NCBI GenBank assembly: GCA_007122455.1
Contig: SKTU01000005.1
Location: 24,182 to 88,181, forward strand
DNA length: 64,000 nucleotides
Direction of reading: 5' to 3'
From: Haloarculaceae archaeon
Lineage (GTDB): Archaea > Halobacteriota > Halobacteria > Halobacteriales > Haloarculaceae
Position numbers and translations under genes: made by a program. How positions within the stretch are numbered: the stretch's first letter is position 1; every line of letters begins with the position of its first letter. Below the pieces are notes generated by a model. The model searched no databases and had not been told where the DNA came from. It saw only the letters and a list, made by a program, of their open reading frames with translations. This document shows positions 28,784-38,808 of this stretch, piece by piece.

Positions 28784-31700
28784 ATGGCACGCGCGGAGGA
28801 CACCGAAGTTATCGAGGCGTTCGAGCAGTTCTACCGCGACTACTACCGAAACGAGATCGGCGAACTCGCCCAACGGTATCCGAACGAGCAGCGATCGCTC
28901 TACGTCGACTGGGGAGATCTCTACCGGTACGATCCGGACCTCGCGGACGACTTCATCGCCCAACCCGAACAGATGCGCGACTACGCCGAGGAGGCGCTCC
29001 GGCTCTACGACCTCCCGGTCGACGTCAAACTCGGGCAAGCGCACGTCCGCATACAGAACCTGCAGGAATCGACGTCGATTCGGGAGATCCGCGCACGCCA
29101 TCGCGGCCAACTGATCGCCGTCAGCGGTATCGTCCGCAAAGCCACCGACGTCCGTCCGAAGATCACCGAGGCCGCCTTCGAATGCCAGCGCTGCGGCACC
29201 CTCTCTCGGATCCCACAGACCAGCGGCGAGTTCCACGAACCCCACGAGTGCCAGGGCTGTGAACGACAGGGACCGTTCAATATCAACTTCGACCAATCGG
29301 AGTTCGTCGACGCCCAGAAGCTCCGCATCCAGGAGTCTCCCGAAGGGCTCCGTGGCGGCGAAACGCCACAGAGCATCGACGTCCACATAGAGGACGACGT
29401 CACCGGCGAGGTGACTGCCGGCGATCACGTCCGCGTGACGGGGATCCTCCACCTCGACCAGCAGGGGAACAACCAGGAGAAATCTCCGATCTTCGACGTC
29501 TACATGGACGGCCTCTCGGTGGAGATCGAGGACGAACAGTTCGAGGACATGGACATCACCGACGAGGACAAAAAGAAGATCATCGAACTCTCCGGCCAAT
29601 CGGAGATCTACGAGAAGATGGTCGGCTCGATGGCGCCCTCGATCTACGGCTACGACCAGGAGAAACTCGCCATCATCATGCAGCTGTTCTCCGGGGTGAC
29701 CAAGGAGCTTCCGGACGGCTCCAGAATCCGTGGAGACCTCCACATGCTTCTGATAGGGGATCCCGGGACGGGGAAGTGCGTGGGCCCCGAAACCAGGGTC
29801 ACGCTGGCCGACGGATCCGAACGGGAGATCGGAGCGCTCGTCGAGGCGAAGCTCGATGATCCGAAGCCGGTCGACGACGGCGTCTACGACGAGGTATCGT
29901 TTCAGGTTCCGTCGCTTGCGTCCGACGGACGCGTCGTACTCCGACGCGCGACGCGAGTCTGGAAGCGTCAGGCACCCGAACGGATGTATCGAATCCGAAC
30001 CGAGAGCGGCCGCGAGCTCGAAGCGACGCCGAGCCATCCGCTGTTCAGCCCATCGGCCGCCGGCATCACGGCGACGAAGGCGGCCGAACTGTCGGCGGGG
30101 GAGTTCATCGCCGTGCCGCGACAGCTCCCAACCGTCGGTGACGACAGCCTCGACGTCTCGTTCCGGCGCTCCGAGGCGAGCGACGCGGATCGCGTCGAGC
30201 CGCCAGAGACGCTGACGCCGAAGCTTGCCCGTCTCCTCGGCTATCTCGTCGCCGACGGCCACGTCGAACAGGAAGGGGTCGTTCGGATCGCCAGCGACGA
30301 TCGAGCGGTTCTGGACGACGCGGCAGCCGCTCTCGACGATCTCGGCGTGAGTCACGACCGTGAACTCGTCTGCCGCTCGGGTGAGCTCGTCCGGTTCCTC
30401 CGGGAGATCGAACCGACGATCCCGAGTGGCTCCGCCGAACAGCGCGTCCCGGCTCCCGTGCTCCGCGCGACCCGCCCGGTAAAGCGCGGATTCCTCCGGG
30501 CGTTCGTCGACACCGGAGGAGTGGTTTCCCCGGAGCGGCGTTCGATCGTCGTCGAATCGTCGAGCAAGGAGCTCCTCGAAGGGATTCGGAGCCTCTTGCT
30601 ATCGTTCGGCATCGACGCACGGCGCCGCGAGCGCTCCGGCGGCCGCTACCGACTCCGAATCGACAGGGAAAATTTCACGCGATACGTCGAGGAGATCGGG
30701 TTCGTGACCGATCGAAAGGCGAGTCCGGCGGCCGAACGCCCGAACACCGCCGAAGACGCGAACCGGGACGTCGTTCCGAACGTCGGGAACGCACTCTGCA
30801 CGCTCAGAGAATCGTTCGGGCTGACGCAGGGCGACTGCGGACTGCCGACGACGACCTACCGTCAGTACGAGTGCGGCGACCGGAACCCGAGCCGCGAATC
30901 GCTCCGTACGATACTCGACGCGTTCACGGCCGCATCCGACGACGGAGTCGCAGCCGACGGAGGGACGGCCGTCGAAGGTAGCCTGGCGTCGCTCCGGTCG
31001 CTGACCCGAGAGGGCGTCGGGTGGGACCGGATCGTCTCGATCGAATCCGTCGAACCGGCGTACGACTGGGTGTACGACCTCGAGGTAGAGGGAACACACA
31101 GCTACGTCTCCAACAACGTTCTCTCGCACAACTCACAGCTTCTCCAGTACGTCCGCAACCTGGCGCCGCGATCGGTGTACACGTCCGGAAAGGGATCCTC
31201 CAGCGCGGGTCTCACTGCGGCTGCCGTCCGCGACGACTTCGGCGACGGCCAACAGTGGACCCTCGAAGCCGGCGCCCTGGTGCTGGCCGACCAGGGGATC
31301 GCCGCCGTCGACGAGCTGGATAAGATGCGGTGCGTCACCGGGGATACGCTGGTACACCTGGCTGACGGGCGCGTATCCAGGATTCGCGACCTCGCGCTGG
31401 AGGCCGCAGAGAGCGGAGAGATCGAGCCACTGGAGAACGGTCGAACGATCCGCGACGTCGATCTTACCGCGTGGACGATGACGGACGACGGCCGTCTGGT
31501 CGAACGGTCAGTGACCGCAGTTCACGAGTACGACGCTCCGGAACGGCTCACCGAGGTTACGCTCGAGTCGGGCGAATCCGTCGTGACGACGCCGGATCAC
31601 CCGTTCTTCGTGTTCGAGGACGGCGAACGGAGAGAGCGAGCCGCCGAGGAGCTGGACGCCGACGACTGGGTGTACGTTCCGCGCCGCCTTTCGCCGTCGG

Positions 31701-34700
31701 TAACCGACGGCGGCACGGTCACGGCGGCAACGGCCGTCGGTCGAGCCGAGGGCTCATCGTCGTCCGCGTTCGGGAGGGTCCTGGGATATCTCTCCGGGAG
31801 CGGTAACGTGTACTACAACGACCCGGATGGGCGCTACGGACTCGAATTCATCCATCAATCGGAAGCGTTGCTCGCAGATTTCGAGAACGCGTGCCGAAAG
31901 GCGTTCAGTGCCGAGCCGGTTCGGTACCCCAGCGAACAGCGCGAGGACGGCGTCGGGACCGTTCGGCTTCGCGGGCGTGAGTATGCCGACCAGGTGCTCG
32001 ACGCCGGAACGAACCTCGAAACGTGCGAGGAGGAGGCGTTTCCCGCGGCTGTTTCCGAAGCTGACCGGAATACCAAGGCAGCATTCATCAGAGCGATGGC
32101 CGACAGCGAAGGGGGCGTCGATACGGCGTCCGGAAACGTAACTATCTCCTCGACGAGCGAAGAGCTCCTCGTCGGGATCAAGAGCCTGTTGCTGGAGTTC
32201 GGAATCTCCTGTCAGATCCAGACGCGTGAACGGAGCGGGGATCTCGACCTGCACGAACTCGTCATTACAGCAGCGGACTCGATCCGGGCGTTCGAGCGCG
32301 AGATCGGATTCACGCTCGAACGAAAACAGAGCGCTCTCGAGACGGTTTGTGCCAGCGTCGATGGTGATCGAACCGGTTGCGACGTGTTACCGGAGTGTGG
32401 CGAACTGCTCGCACAGGTCCGGGAATCCCTGCGACTCTATCAATCCGAGTGCGGACTCGCCGGTTCGACGTACTGCAGTTTCGAGGACGGGGAGGCGAAC
32501 ATCTCGTTACAGCAGGGAGAAACAGTTCTCACAGCCTTCGAGGATCGCATCGATCAGGCTGAATCGGACACCGAGACGCTGTCCCAGAAGTGTGACTGGT
32601 CGACGCTGGAGCGACTGACGGATCGATACCACGTATCTCAGGCTGAACTCGCGGACGGACGTTCGTTCAGCCAGCAACGTGTTTCGGAGCATTGGGGGCG
32701 AAACACGTCGCTTCGAGAGGCGGTTCGACGTCGCCTTCGGGAGATCGTATCGGCCGTTGCCCGAACGGAGATCGACGTGTTCGCCGATCTGATAACCGGT
32801 GACGTGAAATGGCGCCGTGTCAGCGAACTCGAAACGGTGGAACCGAACTACCGGGACGACAGAATACCGATTTTCCGACGGGAGATCGCGAAGCGGCTCG
32901 CCTGTGGTCCCGACGAAGCCGAGAAACGTGCTGAGGACGTTCTCCAGCGAGCGCCGAAGATCGACTCGTGGGCAACGCTTCGGGGAGAGCTCGAACGGCA
33001 CGAAATCCATCTAGAGGCGCTCGTGGACGATCTCGGCGTCGCCTCGTCGACGATCCCCGGGTTGATCAGCGGCGTCGGAACCGACCGGTTCGACGATTTA
33101 AAAGCTGCAGCCGAGGACCGAATCTCCGAGAAGCGGGACCGGATTCGGACGCTTCTCGAGCGGATCGAGGATCGAAGCGGACCGAACGTGTACGACCTCA
33201 CGGTCGCGGGAACACACAACTTCGTGGCTAACGGCATGGTCGTCCACAACTCGGAAGACCGCTCCGCCATGCACGAAGCGCTCGAGCAGCAGTCCTACCA
33301 CCCCGACACCGAGATCCTCCTGGCCGACGGGCGCCGGGTCGAGATCGGCGAGTTCGTCGACGAGCGGATGGCGGCGGCCGGGACGGTCGTCGACGGCGTC
33401 GACTGCGAGATCCTGCCGGTCGACGACCTCACGGTCCACTCCGTCGACTTCGAGACGGACGAGACGACGAAGCTCCCGGTTGACCGCCTCAGTCGTCACG
33501 AGGCCCCCGACGAGTTCGTCCGGGTGAAGTTCTCGAACGGCCGAGAGGTGACGGTGACGCCCGAACACCCCATGTTCGTCGACGAGGATGGAAGGGTCGA
33601 AACCGTCGAGGCCCGCGACATCGAGACGGGGGCGTTCGTCCCGGCGCCGCGGAAGCTGCCGAACTCCACTGCCACAGTCGAGTTCGACGCTGAATCGCAC
33701 GTCAGTGAGGAGACGGGCGTGACGCTTCCAGGAGCGCTATCCGGCGATCTGGCGGAACTCCTCGGATTCCTCGCCACGGGGGGAAGCAGCTACGCCGAAC
33801 CGACCCACGAGATCAGCTTCTCGACCCGAGACGAGCGGACACTCGACCGGATTGACGAGTTGGTCAACTCGGTTTTCGGGGTGGAGAGCACCGACGCGGT
33901 CGACGAGAGCGGAACGGTGAGCAAGCGGTGGGTGTCGGCGGATCTGTACCGCTGGTTCGAATCGAACGTCCCCGAACTGATTTGCGGCGCGCACGAGAGG
34001 CGGATTCCCGCGCGGGTACTCGGTGCCTCCGAGGAGACGATCCGACGGTTCCTGGTCGGGGCCTTCGCGGCCGCCGGCAGTGTCGAGAGCGAAGCGACAC
34101 TCTCGGCGGGATCGAAGGGGTTGGCCGAGGACTACGCGGACGCGCTCTCGAAAGTTGGCATCGCCTCCCGCCTCCGCTACGACGACGCGGAGGGTGTCTG
34201 GAACGTGTACGCGACGGACGAATCGACGGAGCGGTTCGTCGACCGGATCGCCGAGCCGAGCGACGAGCCCCGGCGTGCGGACGTGTCCGAACGGCGGTGT
34301 GGCCTCCGACGATACCGCGTCTGTGAGGTCGAGGCCGTCCCGAACGAAGGCGAAAACGCCTGCGAGTGGGTCTACGACGTGACCGTCGAGCCGACGAACA
34401 CGTTCGTCAGCAAGGGTGTCGTCCTCCACAACTCGATCAGTATCTCCAAGGCGGGCATCAACGCGACCCTGAAGTCGCGGTGTTCGCTGTTGGGCGCGGC
34501 GAACCCCAAATACGGACGGTTCGACCAGTACGAACCGATCGGCGAACAGATCGACCTGGAGCCGGCGCTCGTCTCTCGATTCGATCTCATATTCACCGTC
34601 ACCGACCAGCCCGATCAGGAGGAGGACGCCGCACTGGCGGATCACATCATACAGACCAATTACGCGGGAGAGCTCAACACGCACCGCGAACAGACGGCGA

Positions 34701-35296
34701 CCTCGAACGTGACTCGGGAGGAAGTCGAGAACGTTACCGAATCGGTCGAACCGGAGATCGAAGCCGAGCTGCTGCGGAAGTATATCGCCTACGCCAAGCG
34801 GAACTGCTTCCCGACGATGACCGAGGAGGCGAAGGAGGCCATTCGGGATTTCTACGTCACCCTTCGTGCGAAAGGTCAAGACGAGGACGCGCCGGTCCCG
34901 GTCACTGCGCGGAAACTGGAGGCGCTGGTCCGGCTCTCGGAAGCCTCCGCCCGAATGCGACTCTCCGACACCGTCGAAGCGGAGGACGCCGAGCGCGTCA
35001 TCAACATCGTCCGATCGTGCCTCCAGGACATCGGCGTCGATCCGGAGACCGGCGAGTTCGACGCCGACGTCGTCGAAACGGGACGCTCGAAGACCCAGCG
35101 TGACCGAATCAAGGACATCAAATCGCTCATCAGCGAGATCGAATCGGAGTACGACGAGGGGGCCCCGGTCGACGAGGTGCTGGATCGCGCCGAGGAGATG
35201 GGCCTGGAGCGCTCGAAGGCCGAACACGAGATCGAGAAGCTCCGACAGAAGGGGGACGTCTACGAACCGAGGACGGACCACCTCCGGACGGTCTGA
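28784..35296 (+). CDS. mcm: MCM replicative DNA helicase precursor with three inteins
   Basis: 2170 codons, against about 700 for a normal haloarchaeal MCM. The host protein is 698 residues after removal of three inteins (332-783, 850-1489, 1504-1883). The N-terminal domain carries a zinc finger (Cys 134, 137, 156, 159). The AAA+ core is cut three times: Walker A 'GDPGTGK' (325-331) ends at the first intein, Walker B 'DELDKMR' ends at the second, and 'SEDRSAMHEALEQQ' is the only host sequence between the second and third. After the third come 'SISISKAGI', sensor 'AANPKYGRFD' and the arginine finger 'SRFDLIF', then a C-terminal winged helix. Active helicase requires all three splicing events. 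One base separates the stop from the ATG of the next gene. Confidence 0.95.
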   Translation: MARAEDTEVIEAFEQFYRDYYRNEIGELAQRYPNEQRSLYVDWGDLYRYDPDLADDFIAQPEQMRDYAEEALRLYDLPVDVKLGQAHVRIQNLQESTSIREIRARHRGQLIAVSGIVRKATDVRPKITEAAFECQRCGTLSRIPQTSGEFHEPHECQGCERQGPFNINFDQSEFVDAQKLRIQESPEGLRGGETPQSIDVHIEDDVTGEVTAGDHVRVTGILHLDQQGNNQEKSPIFDVYMDGLSVEIEDEQFEDMDITDEDKKKIIELSGQSEIYEKMVGSMAPSIYGYDQEKLAIIMQLFSGVTKELPDGSRIRGDLHMLLIGDPGTGKCVGPETRVTLADGSEREIGALVEAKLDDPKPVDDGVYDEVSFQVPSLASDGRVVLRRATRVWKRQAPERMYRIRTESGRELEATPSHPLFSPSAAGITATKAAELSAGEFIAVPRQLPTVGDDSLDVSFRRSEASDADRVEPPETLTPKLARLLGYLVADGHVEQEGVVRIASDDRAVLDDAAAALDDLGVSHDRELVCRSGELVRFLREIEPTIPSGSAEQRVPAPVLRATRPVKRGFLRAFVDTGGVVSPERRSIVVESSSKELLEGIRSLLLSFGIDARRRERSGGRYRLRIDRENFTRYVEEIGFVTDRKASPAAERPNTAEDANRDVVPNVGNALCTLRESFGLTQGDCGLPTTTYRQYECGDRNPSRESLRTILDAFTAASDDGVAADGGTAVEGSLASLRSLTREGVGWDRIVSIESVEPAYDWVYDLEVEGTHSYVSNNVLSHNSQLLQYVRNLAPRSVYTSGKGSSSAGLTAAAVRDDFGDGQQWTLEAGALVLADQGIAAVDELDKMRCVTGDTLVHLADGRVSRIRDLALEAAESGEIEPLENGRTIRDVDLTAWTMTDDGRLVERSVTAVHEYDAPERLTEVTLESGESVVTTPDHPFFVFEDGERRERAAEELDADDWVYVPRRLSPSVTDGGTVTAATAVGRAEGSSSSAFGRVLGYLSGSGNVYYNDPDGRYGLEFIHQSEALLADFENACRKAFSAEPVRYPSEQREDGVGTVRLRGREYADQVLDAGTNLETCEEEAFPAAVSEADRNTKAAFIRAMADSEGGVDTASGNVTISSTSEELLVGIKSLLLEFGISCQIQTRERSGDLDLHELVITAADSIRAFEREIGFTLERKQSALETVCASVDGDRTGCDVLPECGELLAQVRESLRLYQSECGLAGSTYCSFEDGEANISLQQGETVLTAFEDRIDQAESDTETLSQKCDWSTLERLTDRYHVSQAELADGRSFSQQRVSEHWGRNTSLREAVRRRLREIVSAVARTEIDVFADLITGDVKWRRVSELETVEPNYRDDRIPIFRREIAKRLACGPDEAEKRAEDVLQRAPKIDSWATLRGELERHEIHLEALVDDLGVASSTIPGLISGVGTDRFDDLKAAAEDRISEKRDRIRTLLERIEDRSGPNVYDLTVAGTHNFVANGMVVHNSEDRSAMHEALEQQSYHPDTEILLADGRRVEIGEFVDERMAAAGTVVDGVDCEILPVDDLTVHSVDFETDETTKLPVDRLSRHEAPDEFVRVKFSNGREVTVTPEHPMFVDEDGRVETVEARDIETGAFVPAPRKLPNSTATVEFDAESHVSEETGVTLPGALSGDLAELLGFLATGGSSYAEPTHEISFSTRDERTLDRIDELVNSVFGVESTDAVDESGTVSKRWVSADLYRWFESNVPELICGAHERRIPARVLGASEETIRRFLVGAFAAAGSVESEATLSAGSKGLAEDYADALSKVGIASRLRYDDAEGVWNVYATDESTERFVDRIAEPSDEPRRADVSERRCGLRRYRVCEVEAVPNEGENACEWVYDVTVEPTNTFVSKGVVLHNSISISKAGINATLKSRCSLLGAANPKYGRFDQYEPIGEQIDLEPALVSRFDLIFTVTDQPDQEEDAALADHIIQTNYAGELNTHREQTATSNVTREEVENVTESVEPEIEAELLRKYIAYAKRNCFPTMTEEAKEAIRDFYVTLRAKGQDEDAPVPVTARKLEALVRLSEASARMRLSDTVEAEDAERVINIVRSCLQDIGVDPETGEFDADVVETGRSKTQRDRIKDIKSLISEIESEYDEGAPVDEVLDRAEEMGLERSKAEHEIEKLRQKGDVYEPRTDHLRTV
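29777..31132 (+). other. Intein 1 of MCM, in the Walker A loop, with LAGLIDADG endonuclease
   Basis: 452 residues (332-783). Begins with Cys ('CVGPETRVTLADG'), block B 'ATPSHPLF', ends 'NNVLSHN' before Ser 784 of the host. It interrupts 'GDPGTGK' and the following Ser of the ATP-binding loop, a classic intein site. Both endonuclease motifs look intact with an acidic residue: 'LLGYLVADGH' (Asp 491) and 'FLRAFVDTGG' (Asp 576). A helix-turn-helix-like stretch follows ('FGLTQGDCGLPTTTYRQYE', about residue 680), probably DNA binding. Confidence 0.93.
31331..33250 (+). other. Intein 2 of MCM, after Walker B, oversized
   Basis: 640 residues (850-1489). Begins 'CVTGDTLVHLADG', block B 'TTPDHPFF', ends 'ANGMVVHN' before Ser 1490. 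The first endonuclease motif reads 'VLGYLSGSGN' with Ser 1006 in place of the catalytic Asp; the second 'FIRAMADSEGG' keeps Asp 1107. A region homologous to the HTH-like part of intein 1 ('LRLYQSECGLAGSTYCSFED') is followed by about 85 further residues and by a 111-residue helical insert (1357-1467) just before block F. Confidence 0.93.
33293..34432 (+). other. Intein 3 of MCM, Ser-initiated, endonuclease motifs degenerate
   Basis: 380 residues (1504-1883). Begins with Ser ('SYHPDTEILLADG') instead of Cys, block B 'VTPEHPMF', ends 'SKGVVLHN' before Ser 1884. The LAGLIDADG-like segments are still recognisable, but the catalytic positions are lost: 'LLGFLATGGS' (Gly 1666) and 'FLVGAFAAAG' (Ala 1763). 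It lies 14 host residues after intein 2. Splicing residues look intact, so it is probably splicing-competent but unable to home. Confidence 0.92.
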
Positions 35297-36739: not shown

Positions 36740-37273
36740 ATGGTGAGGCGTTCGATCACGACCCGGAGATCGGATGGGGTTACGTTCGTCCAGGTGACGG
36801 TTTCAGTCGAAGAACGGTCCCGGCTTCGGATAGAGTACCACGGCGACGGAACGGTGCTTCCGCCGCGCCGTGGTGGCGAGCCGGAGTCCGGCTGGAACGA
36901 GGGGGGGACCGAACGAGTTGTCGACGTCGGTTCGTCGGGGATCGGATTCGCTGTCGTCGAGCCCGTCGAGCCCGAGGACGTCGAGTTAGCTGTCGATCCG
37001 ATTCCCGACGAGTCGGCGGGTGCCGTCGATGCCTGGTTCGATCGCGTCGACGAGCGGCTTCGATGCGCCGAAGAGATTGCAGCGGCTCGAACGCTGGAGG
37101 AAGCGACGGCGGCAGTCGCAGCAGCCGGCGGGCTCGGGGCGGTCGAGCGTCTCGCGGCGGCGGTCGTCCGTGATCGTCGATTGCTCGAGCGAATCGAAAC
37201 CGCACCGGACGCATTGCTCGAACGGGCCGAGCGAACGGAGCTCCCGACCGCGGAACTGCGACGGCTCGCCTGA
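36740..37273 (+). CDS. Conserved haloarchaeal protein of unknown function
   Basis: 177 aa. The N-terminal half is beta-rich ('DGVTFVQVTVSVEERSRLRI'), with a Gly/Pro loop, and the C-terminal half is helical ('LRCAEEIAAARTLEEATAAV'). TTTAT at 36710-36714 is 28 bases before the ATG, so a leaderless message is likely. Its stop abuts the stop of convergent tfb. The last of a run of four unknown genes after mcm. Confidence 0.7.
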   Translation: MVRRSITTRRSDGVTFVQVTVSVEERSRLRIEYHGDGTVLPPRRGGEPESGWNEGGTERVVDVGSSGIGFAVVEPVEPEDVELAVDPIPDESAGAVDAWFDRVDERLRCAEEIAAARTLEEATAAVAAAGGLGAVERLAAAVVRDRRLLERIETAPDALLERAERTELPTAELRRLA

Positions 37274-38137
37274 TCAGTTCCTGACGTCCCGGTAGGTGTT
37301 CCGAATTGTCACTGCGGAGACGCCGGCGACGTCAGCGGCGTCGGTCTGCGTGAGATCGTGACCGGCAGCCTGTGCAGCCGTGTAGAGACACGCGGCGGCG
37401 ACACCACTCGGATTCCGTCCCGCAGCCGTGCCGTCCTCGTGGGCAGTTGCCGCGATCTCGCGGGCGCGACACTCGACCTCCTGGGGGAGCTCCAGTTTCG
37501 AGGCGAACCGAGCGAGATACTCGCGGGGGTCGATCGGACCGGTCGAAAGACCCAACTCTCGGTTGAGAGCGTCGTAGGCGGCCTTCAGCTCGTCGGCGTC
37601 GGCAGCCGCGATCGAGACGACTTCCGCGAGCGTTCGCGACACCGAGTCGGTCCGACAGACGGCGTAGACCGCTGCCGCGGCGAAACCCTCGATAGAGCGT
37701 CCGCGGAGGAGGTCCGCTTCCTGTGCCGACTCGAAGAGAACGCAGGCCCGTTCCTGAAGCGTATCTGGAAGCTCCAGTTGGCTCGTCAACCGCCGAATCT
37801 CGGTGAAACCGTACACCTGGTTCCGCTCGCGTTTACTCGAGATTCGAGCACGGTTGTGCTGGCGGCGCATCCGCGCGACGCGGCGACGCTTCCGCCCTTT
37901 TAGCCGCGTCGAACGGCCAATCTCGGTGGAGAGCCCGCGATCGTGTCGCGACCGGGTCAACGGCGCACCGGTCCGTTCGGGGTTCGTCTCGTCGTCGTCG
38001 AACGAGCGCCACTCCGGGCCTCGATCGATCGCGTCTTCGGCGACGATCAGTCCACACTCGCTACAGACGGTTTCCGTGTCGGTACTCCGGAGCCGCCCCT
38101 CACACTCGGGACAGTTTCGTGCTGTCGTGCTGCTCAT
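37274..38137 (-). CDS. tfb: Transcription initiation factor B (TFB)
   Basis: 287 aa. TFIIB homologue that binds TBP-DNA and recruits RNA polymerase. Zinc ribbon with 'CPEC' and 'CSECG' at the N-terminus, B-finger/linker region with the basic 'LKGRKRRRVARMRRQHNRA', then two cyclin repeats ('RSIEGFAAAAVYAVCR' and 'RNPSGVAAACLYTAA') and the DNA-reading HTH 'AGVSAVTIRNTYRDV'. Haloarchaea have several TFBs, so this one may serve a subset of promoters. The ATG at 38137 is preceded by GTG in frame; a CTTTTAAAG box lies about 30 bases upstream. Confidence 0.94.
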   Translation of the reverse strand: MSSTTARNCPECEGRLRSTDTETVCSECGLIVAEDAIDRGPEWRSFDDDETNPERTGAPLTRSRHDRGLSTEIGRSTRLKGRKRRRVARMRRQHNRARISSKRERNQVYGFTEIRRLTSQLELPDTLQERACVLFESAQEADLLRGRSIEGFAAAAVYAVCRTDSVSRTLAEVVSIAAADADELKAAYDALNRELGLSTGPIDPREYLARFASKLELPQEVECRAREIAATAHEDGTAAGRNPSGVAAACLYTAAQAAGHDLTQTDAADVAGVSAVTIRNTYRDVRN

Positions 38138-38164
38138 CACATGCGAAACTGCGTCCGGATGACA

Positions 38165-38173
38165 CTTTAAAAG
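38165..38173 (-). promoter_or_regulatory. TATA box of tfb
   Basis: CTTTTAAAG on the minus strand, centred 32 bases before the ATG 38137 (29 before the alternative GTG 38140). Confidence 0.5.
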
Positions 38174-38214
38174 ACACCGAGGTCACCCGTTCGGAGGGCA
38201 CGTCTGCCGGCGAA

Positions 38215-38237
38215 AACGTACCGGTAACCGGTACGTT
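38215..38237. promoter_or_regulatory. Perfect 23-bp palindrome between tfb and its divergent neighbour
   Basis: Arms AACGTACCGGT and ACCGGTACGTT flank a single A. Its centre (38226) is 57 bases from the centres of both TATA boxes (38169 and 38283). Such symmetry suits one dimeric regulator controlling both promoters. Confidence 0.65.
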
Positions 38238-38279: not shown

Positions 38280-38285
38280 TTTAAT
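38280..38285 (+). promoter_or_regulatory. TATA box of the gene at 38311
   Basis: TTTAAT centred 28 bases before ATG 38311. It includes the alternative ATG 38284, which is why 38311 is preferred as start. Confidence 0.5.
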
Positions 38286-38310: not shown

Positions 38311-38808
38311 ATGGGGCTGTCGGATATCGCGGCGGGGATCGAGGTGACGGCCGAACAGCGCAATCGAGGCGTTGCGACGACCGACGACACGGAGACGTCG
38401 CTCGACGAGCGCCTGGCACCGTTCGCCGACGAACTGCCGTGTCAGCCGACTGCGGCCGCTCGACTACTCGACGCGTACGCGGACGGAGCGAGCATCGGTC
38501 GAGCGGCCGCAGTCGCGGGAGTTCCGCCCACGGACGCCTCGAAAACTCTCTATCGACTCGGCGAACCGATCGATCCACTCTCGCCGACCGCCGAGCGAGT
38601 GATCGACGACTGGCTCGCCGGAGAGCTCTCCCGAACCGAAGCTCGAACGCTCGCGAACGTCGGCGACGCCGAGTTCGCCCTCGGCGTCTACGTCGCGACC
38701 CACGAGCCGATCGAGGGAGCGGAACACGCCGTCGCGGACGCGCTCGCGATCGATCGACGAACCGATCCGCTCGCCGACACGAGGGGTGACGTCGAAGAGT
38801 GGATGTAG
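38311..38808 (+). CDS. Haloarchaeal protein of unknown function divergent from tfb
   Basis: 165 aa beginning 'MGLSDIAAGIEVT'. Residues 55-95 look like a helical HTH-type unit ('DGASIGRAAAVAGVPPTDAS', then 'KTLYRLGE'), and the C-terminal half is helical and acidic. This could be a DNA-binding protein, but I recognise no named family. Shares a perfect palindrome with tfb in its upstream region. A start at ATG 38284 would place the start inside the TATA box. Confidence 0.68.
   Translation: MGLSDIAAGIEVTAEQRNRGVATTDDTETSLDERLAPFADELPCQPTAAARLLDAYADGASIGRAAAVAGVPPTDASKTLYRLGEPIDPLSPTAERVIDDWLAGELSRTEARTLANVGDAEFALGVYVATHEPIEGAEHAVADALAIDRRTDPLADTRGDVEEWM

Follow-up and report, generated by a model that had tools for sequence, protein, structure and literature searches.

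A conserved 23-bp palindromic candidate operator between the divergent promoters of a haloarchaeal TFB paralogue gene and a DUF7858 gene

Haloarchaea carry many TFB paralogues, whose supposed role resembles that of alternative sigma factors, and to our knowledge little is known about how these paralogues are themselves controlled. One such gene, here called tfb, stands divergently to a gene of the DUF7858 family in the window (i.e., the whole 64,000-nucleotide stretch of Haloarculaceae DNA that was analyzed), and a perfect palindrome lies between their promoters. Is this palindrome a functional site and, if so, which protein would bind it and in which direction would it act?

The palindrome and its setting in the window

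The features of the locus are as follows.

37274..38140, minus strand: TFB paralogue gene tfb (ATG at 38137, GTG at 38140), encoding TFIIB repeats and a Zn ribbon
38166..38171, minus strand: tfb TATA box, TTTAAA, placed by sequence and conserved spacing
38172..38190, minus strand: C/G-rich element upstream of the tfb TATA box, replacing an A-rich BRE, from TATA-aligned loci
38215..38237, no strand: 23-bp palindromic candidate operator, half-site ACCGGTASGTT outward from the central base, conserved in more than 110 loci
38219..38233, no strand: invariant core of the palindrome, TACCGGTnACCGGTA
38280..38285, plus strand: DUF7858 TATA box, TTTAAT, after an A-rich canonical BRE, TGAAAAGA
38311..38808, plus strand: DUF7858 gene, candidate operator-binding regulator (PF25257, 6.3e-61)

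The tfb product matched Pfam PF00382 (6.6e-43) in two stretches, the cyclin-like repeats, and PF08271 (4.8e-11) at 10-47. Against PRK00423 it scored 271 bits, below the cut-off of 384 for a canonical archaeal TFB, and by sequence it is a divergent TFB paralogue. In relatives, the gene order (mcm, small genes, DUF7857, tfb, DUF7858) is retained in part. The DUF7857 gene (36740-37273) is convergent with tfb and adjoins it in several relatives, while mcm (28784-35296) is a 2170-aa open reading frame that looks split by several intein-like insertions. On the other side, the DUF7858 ATG at 38311 lies about 28 bp past its TATA box; the start of a longer reading frame, at 38284, falls inside that box.

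The initial annotation had described exact 11-base arms around one A at 38215-38237, and the sequence bears this out: the segment reads AACGTACCGGT A ACCGGTACGTT, an exact inverted repeat. No second palindrome with arms of at least 11 and a loop of 0 or 1 was found within the 64-kb window, and 4 of 20,000 Markov simulations of a 170-bp intergenic region gave one such palindrome. By formula, chance would yield about 1e-4 per 170 bp and about 1.8 per whole genome. Since one or two chance copies are thus expected genome-wide, palindromy alone is no proof of function, and the meaning of the palindrome rests on its conservation and position. The perfect core is present as a single copy in the window's own genome assembly (2.93 Mb, 87% complete); copies with 2-3 mismatches elsewhere in that genome are most likely background.

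Conservation, symmetry, and spacing of the site

We compared 53 tfb relatives and 121 DUF7858-positive genomes among 195 of the class, adding 60 further DUF7858 regions to those retrieved directly, and called a site at tfb loci when it had no more than 5 mismatches of 20. The initial annotation had held that absence of the palindrome from relatives with the same gene pair would speak against it; at this threshold, the site was retained upstream of the orthologous tfb at 118 of 122 haloarchaeal loci from DUF7858-positive genomes, compared with 1 of 25 DUF7858-negative tfb loci. Nearly all divergent tfb/DUF7858 intergenic regions contain it. Of the four loci without a site at this threshold, two (L090 and L147) retain a palindrome with changed letters (TGTCGGTnACCGACA) and another (L148) a weaker palindrome, leaving L141 as the sole one with the site essentially lost.

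Across 111 distinct sites, arm positions 1, 3, and 4 carry close to 2 bits of information each, positions 6 and 9 are also high, and the content drops to background past position 11, so that the eleventh base is the last conserved one in either arm, exactly where the palindrome had been taken to end. At position 8, C and G are equally frequent, and the two arms agree there in 88% of sites vs. 45% expected; transversion mismatches are tolerated at position 7, and the central base has no strong orientation. Because the arms covary at position 8 while most identities are fixed, we read the site as a dyad recognized by a protein. As judged from these alignments, the pattern is that expected of a protein site with two-fold symmetry; in a structure kept for pairing, the identities would be free to drift. 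We are highly confident that the palindrome is a real, highly conserved, and probably protein-bound operator.

The spacing to the two TATA boxes was then considered. In the window, the palindrome center (38226) lies 57.5 bp from the center of the tfb TATA box and 56.5 bp from that of DUF7858. On the tfb side, 97 of 117 loci have a distance of 56.5 bp, and all of them lie within 53.5-58.5 bp. On the DUF7858 side, it falls into classes of about 46, 56.5, 67, and 77.5 bp, with 31.5 bp in one genus, i.e., in increments of roughly a helical turn (genus-level Rayleigh p ~6e-7). A phase test in which each genus contributed a single value for each spacing class gave R ~0.6 at 10.5-11 bp, with genera that are not fully independent, and a phase simulation leaving out the dominant DUF7858-side class gave p = 0.006; descent could be why that main class has been retained. 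As a rule, then, the tfb TATA box keeps a fixed distance from the site, and the DUF7858 TATA box keeps to one face of the helix. The earlier figure of 57 bases from each TATA box is therefore nearly true of the window, but equality is a property of the commonest class and not a conserved rule. Likewise, the proposal of one symmetric site common to both promoters stands, with spacing constrained on both sides, but the idea that one dimer acts on both promoters alike does not fit a tfb distance that is fixed and a DUF7858 distance that varies in helical-turn steps.

The two promoters also differ in their elements. TATA-aligned tfb promoters (L002-L159 and the window) have a strong TATA box (TTTAAATA) followed by TA, and their family consensus, conserved throughout the set, places CCCG at -6..-3 and a second C/G block at -18..-13; the window copy diverges from it. 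DUF7858 promoters, aligned in the same way, have an A/purine-rich BRE, unlike the C-rich, non-canonical BRE of tfb. The inner edge of the palindrome is about 45 bp from either TATA center. The palindrome lies upstream of both predicted start points and, as predicted, outside the transcripts of both promoters.

The candidate binder and the direction of control

DUF7858 is the natural candidate for the binder because of its adjacency to the site, its co-occurrence with it, and a predicted fold with HTH-like units. The product matched PF25257 over residues 1-162 with 205.7 bits (cut-off 27). In the AlphaFold model, two tandem tri-helical HTH-like units (46-82 and 92-130) were predicted, with pLDDT above 90 for most of the helical core; matches to HTH_28 were weak, occurring in 15 of 34 DUF7858 members (best 0.0052). 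The N-terminal tail, LSDIAAGIEVT-EQRDRGVA, is conserved and predicted to be disordered, and it could serve as a contact to the basal machinery. Foldseek and sequence searches of the PDB with DUF7858 gave no significant match (best E 0.68): the HTH domains of TrpR and KorB/ParB weakly resemble the helical core in Foldseek, but at E 0.68 or worse and with no sequence similarity. Covariation of DUF7858 residues with the variable bases of the operator did not single out the HTH. As a pointer to DNA-contacting residues, we set it aside, with signals spread across the whole protein and explained by descent. The initial annotation had noted an HTH-like segment in the 38311 gene and suggested that it encodes the regulator; the fold prediction agrees, and DUF7858 is the best candidate regulator.

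When the core with its flanking letters was searched at no more than 1 mismatch, 37 of 80 DUF7858-positive genomes matched, 34 of them exactly once, and the single matches mapped to the tfb/DUF7858 locus wherever coordinates were given. More than one match was found in G169 (2), G033 (4), and G142 (6). Among DUF7858-less genomes, 4 of 74 had a site at no more than 2 mismatches. In DUF7858-negative genomes outside Natrialbaceae, the whole interval is missing and a HIT gene lies directly upstream of tfb, so the shared absence of site and DUF7858 is to some extent a trivial result, reflecting in part a single physical event. The Natrialbaceae-like genomes searched whole (family f3) were all without DUF7858; in one member of Natrialbaceae, Natribaculum (L045), a decayed site copy was seen at -86 with no DUF7858 in the flank examined, the negative status of named loci being judged from about 4 kb of flank. 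In an independent-pairs test on the tfb tree, every pair ran in the expected direction, with only 2, too few, on supported branches. No DUF7858 was found in 148 genomes of the phylum outside the class.

Rearranged loci indicate which gene the site belongs to. Where tfb and DUF7858 have separated, the site is intact at tfb in G037 and G143, present as a diverged palindrome in G130, and degraded in G049; in Halosimplex and Halosegnis it is at tfb, 1.8-2.8 kb from DUF7858. The own promoter of the relocated DUF7858 gene carried no such site in G037, G049, and G130. Since the site is retained at tfb after separation, tfb is its primary target, and the binder must act in trans.

Several further observations were made at altered loci. 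At L102 and L103, where DUF7858 has moved away from tfb, a small palindrome of another sequence (ACATACT-AAC-AGTATGT in L103) spans the predicted start of transcription, which suggests new local control. Truncated or frameshifted DUF7858 genes occur in G101, G056, and G143 (L149, L150, and L146), and in G101 and G056 the tfb beside mcm is gone. Genus g28 (G033 and G142; L205-L218) has extra perfect or near-perfect operator copies, several of them intergenic, adjoining aroC/UDG, thiL/rps19e, a radical SAM gene, hmgA, and a RecJ-like gene alongside a UPF0173-like hydrolase gene (all named from sequence by eye). Some of these sites are common to both species, others fall within coding regions, and a phased TATA box was not recognized at any of them. 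They may possibly represent an expanded regulon.

Could the repeat act without a protein, or through another one? A hairpin or cruciform, serving as a terminator or attenuator, would make use of the perfect inverted repeat and of the covariation between arms at position 8. However, its loop would be a single base, most positions are fixed in identity and not just in pairing, position 7 tolerates transversions, and the site lies upstream of both predicted starts and so outside both transcripts; we regard this explanation as very improbable. Alternatively, a different conserved haloarchaeal transcription factor, encoded elsewhere, might bind the site, with DUF7858 merely a second target. The persistence of the site at tfb, not at DUF7858, after rearrangement would fit such a factor, as would the several more sites upstream of housekeeping genes in g28. 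Yet an unlinked regulator would not usually have just one site in almost every genome, sites are missing genome-wide where DUF7858 is absent (apart from the 4 of 74 noted above), and DUF7858 is itself predicted to be HTH-like, all of which makes an unlinked factor unlikely. We thus consider the DUF7858 protein, whether as activator or as repressor, to be the probable binder of the site.

As to direction, DUF7858 might bind the site and repress both tfb and itself, with negative feedback keeping the TFB level constant. As a matter of general knowledge, divergent autoregulated pairs are commonly under negative control. Steady expression is also suggested by the use of HVO_0226, a TFB variant of Haloferax volcanii and putative counterpart of tfb, as a qPCR reference (PMC7714728). 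But the site edge, at about 45 bp from the TATA centers, is too distant to cover the TATA box, BRE, or start in most loci, and helical phasing together with the non-canonical tfb BRE fits activation better; repression therefore seems to us a rather doubtful reading, if less so than an unlinked factor. Activation is more likely than repression, mainly because the poor tfb BRE fits activator-dependent recruitment and because activators bind upstream. With some confidence, we favor DUF7858 as a local, autoregulated regulator that activates this TFB paralogue, with the palindrome as its operator.

Proposed mechanism and comparison with known systems

In the mechanism that we propose, the palindrome would serve as operator for a divergon, two genes that form a self-contained regulatory unit. 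A symmetric DUF7858 dimer would occupy the 23-bp site with one subunit per 11-bp arm, a binder and dimer state suggested by the predicted fold and the dyad, and the two HTH-like units of each subunit would probably touch the conserved blocks ACCGGT and SGTT, a fit that is suggestive only. Positioned about 57 bp upstream of the tfb TATA box and on a fixed helix face, the dimer would help to bring the basal machinery to that promoter, and it would also control its own promoter from the other side of the site. An inducing signal may take part, although this is conjecture. Whether DUF7858 is more generally a new haloarchaeal family of DNA-binding regulators, mainly setting the level of one TFB paralogue and acting as a wider regulator in one genus, appears to us about evenly balanced. 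If it is, one local switch would feed a genome-wide promoter program, as with dedicated regulators of alternative sigma factors.

The analysis provides one TFB paralogue with a specific, testable 23-bp control element with known edges and spacing rules, and with a named candidate regulator from a family without assigned function that is conserved across most of the class. DUF7858 itself is present in Haloferax volcanii, which makes direct genetic tests feasible in a laboratory model. In the open-access literature, which was the part covered, no description of the palindromic site or of DUF7858 was found. Haloarchaeal TFB paralogues stem from an ancient expansion (PMC4230888), and several of those in Halobacterium, tfbC and tfbG included, are dispensable (PMC2121645).

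Archaeal activators are reported to have their binding sites upstream of the initiation complex, and repressors downstream of it (PMC4287449). EarA, GvpE, and, at some targets, RosR likewise have their site upstream of the initiation complex, as here. In the EarA case, the target promoter has a poor BRE, like tfb, and BRE mutations bypass the activator (PMC13286277). A further likeness is that RosR activity peaked at 65-75 bp from TFB sites (PMC4287449). As differences, the present site is centered about 57 bp from the TATA box instead of beside the BRE, it is a 23-bp dyad of ACCGGTASGTT, and no common sequence family was found. In Halobacterium salinarum, RosR recognizes a 20-bp palindromic site and regulates tfbB among other transcription factor genes (PMC4287449), but it has 252 bound loci, whereas the present site occurs about once per genome and at one tfb only. 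The closest general likeness is to divergent autoregulated regulator-target pairs, which likewise have one symmetric site between their promoters, an HTH gene on one side, and constrained spacing; here, by contrast, it is a general transcription factor that is targeted, and the candidate regulator comes from an uncharacterized haloarchaeal family.
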